The notes under the pieces: model-generated
The model's database searches: none
Seen by the model: only the letters and a program-made list of their open reading frames with translations
Told to the model about the DNA's origin: nothing
Program-made: the position numbers and the translations under genes
Assembly (NCBI GenBank): GCA_003232725.1
Contig: QIJH01000168.1
Location: 1 to 32,890 of the forward strand
DNA length: 32,890 nt
Source of the DNA: Chromatiaceae bacterium
Lineage (GTDB): Bacteria > Pseudomonadota > Gammaproteobacteria > SZUA-140
Direction: 5' to 3'
Shown here: in pieces, positions 1 through 32,890 of the stretch
Position numbering within the stretch: the first letter of the stretch is position 1
How the letters are laid out: each line of letters opens with the position of its first letter

Positions 1-126
1 CCACCCGTTCAGCGTTAAAAAATGATCATTTACACGTGTAAACTCACATTTTTCGCCTTGAACTGGCAGATTTCATGAGCGATCTGAGCAGCTACTGTTA
101 ATTTTGACTACTCGCTGAGTAGTTAC
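1..126. repeat. MITE-like element, family 3 (GTAAC/GTTAC ends), copy A, truncated by the left window edge
   Basis: Near-identical to the reverse complement of 16192..16342 over its visible length. Shares the aatgatcatttacac core with 31547..31698. Right end is GCTGAGTAGTTAC. Alignment to copy B implies about 26 bp lie left of the window. Confidence 0.85.
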
Positions 127-4739: not shown

Positions 4740-5304
4740 ATGCGCATTACGTTGTATTTATTTGCTATGTTTACTTTTGCTTCACTGCCTGCAGCCGCAT
4801 GGGATGAGAAATCGGATGACTATAGGGCACCTCTATTAATTCTGGGCGTGGCAGATTGAATTCAAAATTCGTTACATCAAGGCGTCAATAGCAGGTAATA
4901 CCCAAGGGGGCACACCCAAAATTGACAACGCTGATGTAGCGGATTTGGAATTTAAGCTGCGTGTTCATGAATTAATAGAGGTGCCCTATATATCCCAGGT
5001 AGTGGTCATCGATTTATCTTAACTAACAATCACTCCGTTTAATGTGAATGAGCTACTGGTGCGTGTTGCGCTATTGGAAAATTGGGAGATACAGCGGCGC
5101 TCAGAGACACAGATATTGGCGAAATTTAATGATCAATGCCTGATGCGTATTGACCTTGAGGCAGGAAAAATCAGATTACAGGAGCTGGTGACAAGCTGTG
5201 ACTTTAATGGTGCGTGGCTGAACACTATTCGCAAGAATTTCATTAGGAATGCAACCTATCATCGACATGTTGAGAATGCACGAGATTATTTAGGCGAATA
5301 TTAG
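4740..5304 (+). pseudogene. Small secreted-protein gene interrupted by a family 2 element
   Basis: 5' part MRITLYLFAMFTFASLPAAAWDEKSDDY (signal peptide), then the element with TATA TSD. The 3' part (5044..5304, ...NELLVRVALLENWEIQRRSETQILAKFNDQCLMRIDLE...) is in frame after removing 166 bp, apart from one TAA at 5020-5022. Confidence 0.75.
4825..4986. repeat. MITE-like element, family 2, copy 2 (162 bp) with TATA TSD
   Basis: Same 17-bp ends as 1491..1640. TATA at 4821-4824 and 4987-4990. Arms near-identical to copy 1, central loop different. Confidence 0.85.
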
Positions 5305-16108: not shown

Positions 16109-16191
16109 TGCGAACTTTGGGGTACGTTTCTGGTTTAAAATTAAGTGGCAGGCTAAAAATCAGGTTGGGTATTAAAAATAGATAGAAATAT

Positions 16192-16342
16192 GTAACTACT
16201 CAGCGAGTAGTCAAAATTAACAGTGGCTGCTCAGATCGCCCATGAAATCTGCCAGTTTCTTTATGCCCTCGGGTGCAAGGCGTGTAAATGATCATTTTTT
16301 AACGCTGAACGGGTGGAGTTCATGGGTTAGCTGAGTAGTTAC
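16192..16342. repeat. MITE-like element, family 3, copy B (151 bp) with 8-bp TSD AGAAATAT
   Basis: GTAACTACTCAGC...GCTGAGTAGTTAC terminal IR. AGAAATAT at 16184-16191 and 16343-16350. Opposite orientation to copy A. Confidence 0.92.
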
Positions 16343-16430
16343 AGAAATATTAGGAAAAGCATGAGGGTCTGGTGTATCGTGTGCCTTGCCGTCAAAATTG
16401 TTCGTAGCAAACGAAAACCAAGGGGTCAGG

Positions 16431-31473: not shown

Positions 31474-31546
31474 ATTTTAGTTAGGATTTTCCAATAGGAT
31501 GGAATGATGACACAAGCAGTGAAGTCATTGAAGAGCTGTTTTTGTT

Positions 31547-31698
31547 GTAACTATTCCGCTTGCTCCTGAAATCTGCCATTTCTGCATTGAAAAATGATCA
31601 TTTACACCTGTAAACTCATATTTTTCTCCTTAAACTGACAGATTTCAGGAGCAAGCGGAATAGTTACATACTCATCTTCCACTATGTTGAATAGTTAC
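31547..31698. repeat. MITE-like element, family 3, copy C (152 bp) with 8-bp TSD TTTTTGTT
   Basis: Outer ends GTAACTATTC...GAATAGTTAC. TTTTTGTT at 31539-31546 and 31699-31706. Contains a nested perfect 29-bp IR (GTAACTATTCCGCTTGCTCCTGAAATCTG, 31547-31667). Shares core with copies A and B. Confidence 0.9.
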
Positions 31699-31980
31699 TT
31701 TTTGTTAAGTATTTAACTGGATGGACAAAATTAACTTAAAAGATAAAAGAAAATGTCGATAGATATGATAGTGTTACGATTCTACAGTACATGGTTACCT
31801 GTCATGTTAACACCATATTTGTGGCGAGAGGTGGGTGTTAAAGGGTTTTGAAGTAGATTTAAGGTGAAATAGTAGGGTGATTTCAAAAATGTATTTCAAT
31901 TTGAGCCGCGAAATATTGTCTACTGCTAGTGGGCTTGTCTTAATTGAGCGTGCTGACAGTGTCTATTCAGGAAGCATCGA

Positions 31981-32828: not shown

Positions 32829-32890
32829 GAGACCTTTGCACGAGAGCTAGTTTTCGTTCCAGCAAGGCATAAATGATCGAAAAAATGGAG
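32829..32890. repeat. MITE-like element, family 1, second copy truncated by the right window edge
   Basis: GAGACCTTTGCACGAGAGCTAGTTTTCGTTCCAGCAAGGCATAAATGATCGAAAAAATGGAG, near-identical to 605..~667, same orientation. Confidence 0.85.

Follow-up and report, generated by a model that had tools for sequence, protein, structure and literature searches.

The question raised by this locus is what kind of sequence lies at positions 16192-16342 and which transposase family, if any, supplied its ends. The window analysed here (the whole stretch of 32,890 bp) corresponds to contig C24 in its entirety; the draft genome to which it belongs totals 2.66 Mb over 257 contigs and is 92% complete. According to our analysis, 16192-16342 is very probably a non-autonomous miniature element of the IS66 family, belonging to the ISBst12 (single-gene) group.

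Structure and position of the element

Inspection of the sequence revealed a 151-bp non-coding element, to which no strand is assigned, with 13-bp perfect inverted ends, GTAACTACTCAGC at 16192-16204 (plus strand) and GCTGAGTAGTTAC at 16330-16342 (minus strand, where it reads GTAACTACTCAGC). The element is flanked by the exact 8-bp duplication AGAAATAT, the unstranded copies of which occupy 16184-16191 and 16343-16350, and in all these respects the initial sequence-only reading was accurate. The copy is intergenic. On its upstream side lie a small frame and two methyltransferase genes, of which the second strongly matches Methyltransf_9/DUF1698, and on its downstream side lie another small frame and a Kelch-repeat gene. 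The interior is a long imperfect palindrome, coding for nothing recognisable, and, the ends aside, it has little in common with the autonomous element. An Rfam search of the window matched no family at the gathering threshold. With up to two mismatches allowed, the end motif has six occurrences in the window, whereas shuffled sequences predict 0.56.

An inner end-like motif, GTGGCTGCTCAG (16223-16234, plus strand), was located 31 bp inside the left end by sequence and by comparison with relatives, and a remnant of a palindromic core, CAAGGC..GTGTAAATGATCATTTTTTAACGCTG (16276-16307, plus strand), was recognised when the element was set against its 152- and 170-bp counterparts. Relative to the 170-bp form, 19 bp of this core (GAAAAATGTGAGTTTACAC) are absent, and the window copy most plausibly arose from that form by loss of these 19 bp. 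The usual form in this genome is 152 bp long and likewise has an additional end-like motif on its left side, 31 bp inward. In relatives, the inner motif reads GTAACTGCTCAG and can itself be the terminus of a shorter variant of ~117-121 bp; the short form at L083, ending at the inner motif, has the duplication AGTAATTC, as read from the sequence.

The two further copies previously proposed for the window are real. One of them (1-126, minus strand), detected by BLAST, is truncated where the contig ends. The other (31547-31698, minus strand) is a diverged 152-bp copy with the ends GTAACTATTCAAC / GTAACTATTCCGC, and a check of its flanks gave the exact duplication TTTTTGTT at 31539-31546 and 31699-31706. 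The double-end layout is clear in this copy: its inner inverted repeat of 36 bp (31546-31581 / 31633-31668) is nearly perfect, and the outer end is borne on a 31-bp extension.

Copies, target duplications and empty sites

A BLASTN search of the element's own genome, which had been suggested as a check, gave 46 matches, mostly separate copies and mostly 151-173 bp long, including a few reverse-strand self-matches of palindromic copies already counted; many of the copies are conserved in length and ends. An exact 8-bp duplication was present in 32 of the 45 distinct copies for which both ends and flanks were in hand, compared with 0.2% in a chance control using mismatched flanks, and no duplication of any length other than 8 bp was seen at the edges of copies in this genome. 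The duplicated target is AT-rich (79%). Several contigs of this genome terminate within a copy, as expected when repeats break the assembly.

Empty orthologous sites, the other kind of evidence that had been proposed, were found in three congeners (G003, G008 and G006), in which the flanks are continuous without the element and the target is present only once, as GGAAATAC or AGAAATAC, in contrast to the two copies of AGAAATAT in the window. Judging from its copies, 8-bp duplications and empty sites, the element is mobile. Both the conserved copies and the empty sites in relatives, on which the MITE interpretation had been made to depend, therefore exist, and the element has the full set of features of a MITE: a size below ~500 bp, lack of coding capacity, terminal inverted repeats, a target duplication, many copies and empty sites.

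Complete elements with the same ends

Ends of the GTAACTA(C/T)TCAGC type, by which the ISBst12 group is recognised, were found on L220, on ISGst1 and on Paraburkholderia and Oceanisphaera elements. L220, in a Pseudomonadales MAG, is a complete 1706-bp element with GTAACTACTCAGC at both ends and the duplication TTGCGATA, and it carries one long transposase frame of 438 codons with neither tnpA nor tnpB, as is typical of this single-gene group. Its product matched PF03050 (E 6e-42) and NF033517 (E 3.5e-83) and contains the motifs VDET / HDHW / NNxxERDxR. Similar elements were found in Methylococcaceae (L221) and, in decayed form with the duplication CATTTGAC, in Thiomargarita (L224). On annotated plasmids, IS66 transposases are encoded by Geobacillus ISGst1 (ends GTAACTATTCAGC, duplication AAAAGAAC) and by the Paraburkholderia element with ISBst12-type ends (duplication GCCGCCGC); a Planococcus plasmid element (GTAACTACTTAGG, duplication TTTAATTT) shows the same pattern as ISGst1.

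The Deinococcus element ISDge4 of the ISBst12 group has the terminal repeats GTGACTACTCAGCA / GTAACTGCTCAGCA, an 8-bp repeat and one 449-aa transposase, and its transposition has been seen experimentally (PMC12898284). Members of this group (ISDge4, ISGst1 and ISBst12) resemble the window element in their ends, which in ISDge4 are near-identical, and in the 8-bp duplication typical of the group, for which the 32 duplicated copies and the empty sites are the evidence here; however, they are ~1.5-1.7 kb long and encode a transposase, whereas the window element is 151 bp long and encodes none. The earlier proposal of an IS66-derived MITE was supported by the complete same-ended elements, their 8-bp duplications and their PF03050/NF033517 transposase, but its tnpABC partner has to be replaced by a single-gene ISBst12 element.

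Under this scheme, a DDE transposase encoded elsewhere would recognise the GTAACTA(C/T)TCAGC ends, and the target would be duplicated upon insertion with an 8-bp stagger. The transposase of complete same-ended elements would move the mini-element in trans, and the partner would have been lost, truncated or left unassembled in the element's own genome. A search of this assembly yielded no intact ISBst12-type element. On contig C127, a GTAACTACTCAGC end precedes the initial portion of a transposase, which is then cut off and is 59% identical to the L220 transposase over 105 residues, and contig C232 gave a weak C-terminal transposase match; the draft assembly may have lost the partner. An intact partner in the same genome is not required of a MITE.

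In another genome of the same class (G028), almost all of the 27 transposase matches are short pieces located at contig edges, with the transposase C-terminus adjoining a GTAACTACTCAGC end; for this reason, autonomous copies are probably numerous in G028 and collapsed in its assembly. A PF03050 search yielded no match in several mini-element-rich genomes, among them those of Chloroflexi, a Clostridiaceae bacterium and an Elusimicrobia bacterium; the transposase may have been lost in assembly, or the partners may have been transient.

Alternative origins

Descent by internal deletion from a classical three-gene IS66 element (tnpABC) was one alternative, as IS66-family elements begin with GTAA and make 8-bp duplications, and IS66 copies of tnpABC size (2376 bp, duplication GGTTAATT) are present in the same genus. 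However, these copies end in GTAAGCGCAAAACAAACCAC, which has only GTAA in common with the mini-element end GTAACTACTCAGC, and the elements with matching ends carry a single transposase gene. The full tnpABC element with the same ends that the sequence-only reading had anticipated was thus not what the genus offered. Apart from the GTAA start and the 8-bp duplication, classical IS66 differs in its three genes (tnpA, tnpB and tnpC) and in its ends beyond GTAA (GTAAGCGC in this genus), and we consider such a derivation very unlikely. A degenerate IS66 on contig C132 of the same genome was also considered as the parent and was rejected; its likely right end, after its tnpC, is GTAAGCGCAAAA.

The possibility that the MITE is moved mainly by another transposase making 8-bp duplications (e.g., of the IS256, ISL3 or IS6 type) gains something from the many mini-element genomes without a detectable IS66 transposase. 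Against it, multi-copy elements are often missing from draft assemblies, as is evident from the broken G028 contigs, IS256, ISL3 and IS6 types have different terminal sequences, and all complete same-ended elements found here encode an IS66-family transposase, in a set that came from an IS66-transposase search and is not unbiased; so foreign mobilisation of this kind is extremely unlikely. A host repeat that does not move, serving as a terminator, a regulatory RNA or a nucleoid site, would agree with the intergenic position of the copy and with its strong palindrome, which in single-strand DNA folds is strongly hairpinned (window copy, z -6.0; 152-bp form, z -9.4). This reading has a practically negligible probability in view of the exact 8-bp duplications, the empty sites in three congeners and the lack of an Rfam match, and as a full account it is already refuted by the empty sites; a secondary regulatory effect of the element may exist.

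Distribution of the ends and variety of the interiors

The assignment to the ISBst12 group provides a parent for an abundant mini-element type of many uncultured bacteria that oxidise sulfur, methane or iron, and of other phyla. A scan with GTAACTACTCAGC N100-130 GCTGAGTAGTTAC detected at least 115 stretches in Gammaproteobacteria, Zetaproteobacteria, Chloroflexi, Bacteroidetes, Elusimicrobia, Clostridia and others, with a chance expectation, by arithmetic, of ~0.002 in 257 Gb. Exact 8-bp duplications were present in 72 of 148 distinct same-ended copies. The interiors of these mini-elements are palindromic and completely different between groups, so that ISBst12-type ends have widely spread unrelated palindromic cargo.

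Dispersed palindromes resembling the interiors of GTAACTACTCAGC-ended elements, and lacking those ends, were observed in the same contig sets of the Chloroflexi MAGs L101, L138 and L198 and likewise in the Thiotrichaceae MAG L144. Because of such similar sequences in some Chloroflexi and one Thiotrichaceae genome, the interiors look like captured host palindromes. Additionally, two family elements were found adjacent, with ~8 bp between them, at L041 (G000:C58:4097-4424) and at L158 (near 857-866), as if one had inserted beside the other at its duplication.

The window element shares shortness, lack of coding capacity, terminal inverted repeats, target duplication and multiple copies with Correia/NEMIS, MITEPsy1 and MITEAba12, but the latter have other ends and other parents; MITEPsy1 duplications, in particular, are 4 bp long (PMC3189936). 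No IS66- or ISBst12-derived MITE was recognised in the literature searched, and a search of open-paper text with the end and core sequences returned no relevant report.

A palindromic core shared with other mini-elements

An HMM of the core, built from GTAAC-ended elements, matched mini-elements whose ends differ (best E 6e-9, in Gammaproteobacteria), namely GGAACCTCTGATTAATTCA / GGGCGCCTCTATAAATTC, CTACTGTGTCACAAAGCG and GGCTGTTGAAAAAG, and its match to GAGACCTTTGCACGA-ended (GAGACC) elements was weak (E about 0.001). Pairwise scores between core types were well above those of shuffles. Of the 143 genomes in the class, eight contained an exact core pattern and none its reversed control. Duplications were 5 bp long in 15 of 24 copies of the GAGACC elements and 4 bp long in six of nine GGNACCTCTNA elements, five of the nine in this set having the core; since the duplication lengths differ, different transposases are probably involved. 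In the core stem, few pairs were changed on both sides and most were invariant, so a structure beyond sequence conservation is weakly supported.

Tentatively, and with some reserve, the core CAAGGC..GAAAAA..GAGTTTAC..GTAAATGA..ATTTT..AACGC could be regarded as an interchangeable module that spreads while enclosed by the ends of several unrelated transposon families (with 8-, 5- and 4-bp duplications), kept for a benefit to the mini-element or to the host, e.g., as a protein-binding hairpin. Possible causes of the sharing are that ends were exchanged around a useful core, that a common hairpin was captured, or that the sequences converged. A core common to mini-elements of different transposases raises the question of the role of MITE interiors and of how ends swap, and it may be the part of this analysis that deserves follow-up.

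ERIC, which is also palindromic, about 130 bp long and has a central TTAC..GTAA motif, was considered as a homologue of the core on account of this motif and was rejected: pairwise z values were below 4, with scores within the shuffle range, and the core HMM did not match ERIC even at E 100.

In other Gammaproteobacteria, the core GCGAAAAAGCGGAGTTTACACGnAGTAAATGAGCATTTTGAG was also observed between many different ends (L081, L087, L092, L098, L079, L086, L297, L298 and L243). The window itself contains two more mini-element families. One of them, with GAGACCTTTGCACGA ends, is located at 605-742 and at 32829-32890, the latter copy being cut by the contig end; it has dozens of copies in this genome and contains the GAGTTTAC..GTAAATGA core. 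The other, with GGGCACCTCTATTAATTC ends, is located at 1491-1640 (150 bp) and 4825-4986 (162 bp), and these copies have 4-bp duplications (ATTA and TATA) and no GAGTTTAC core.
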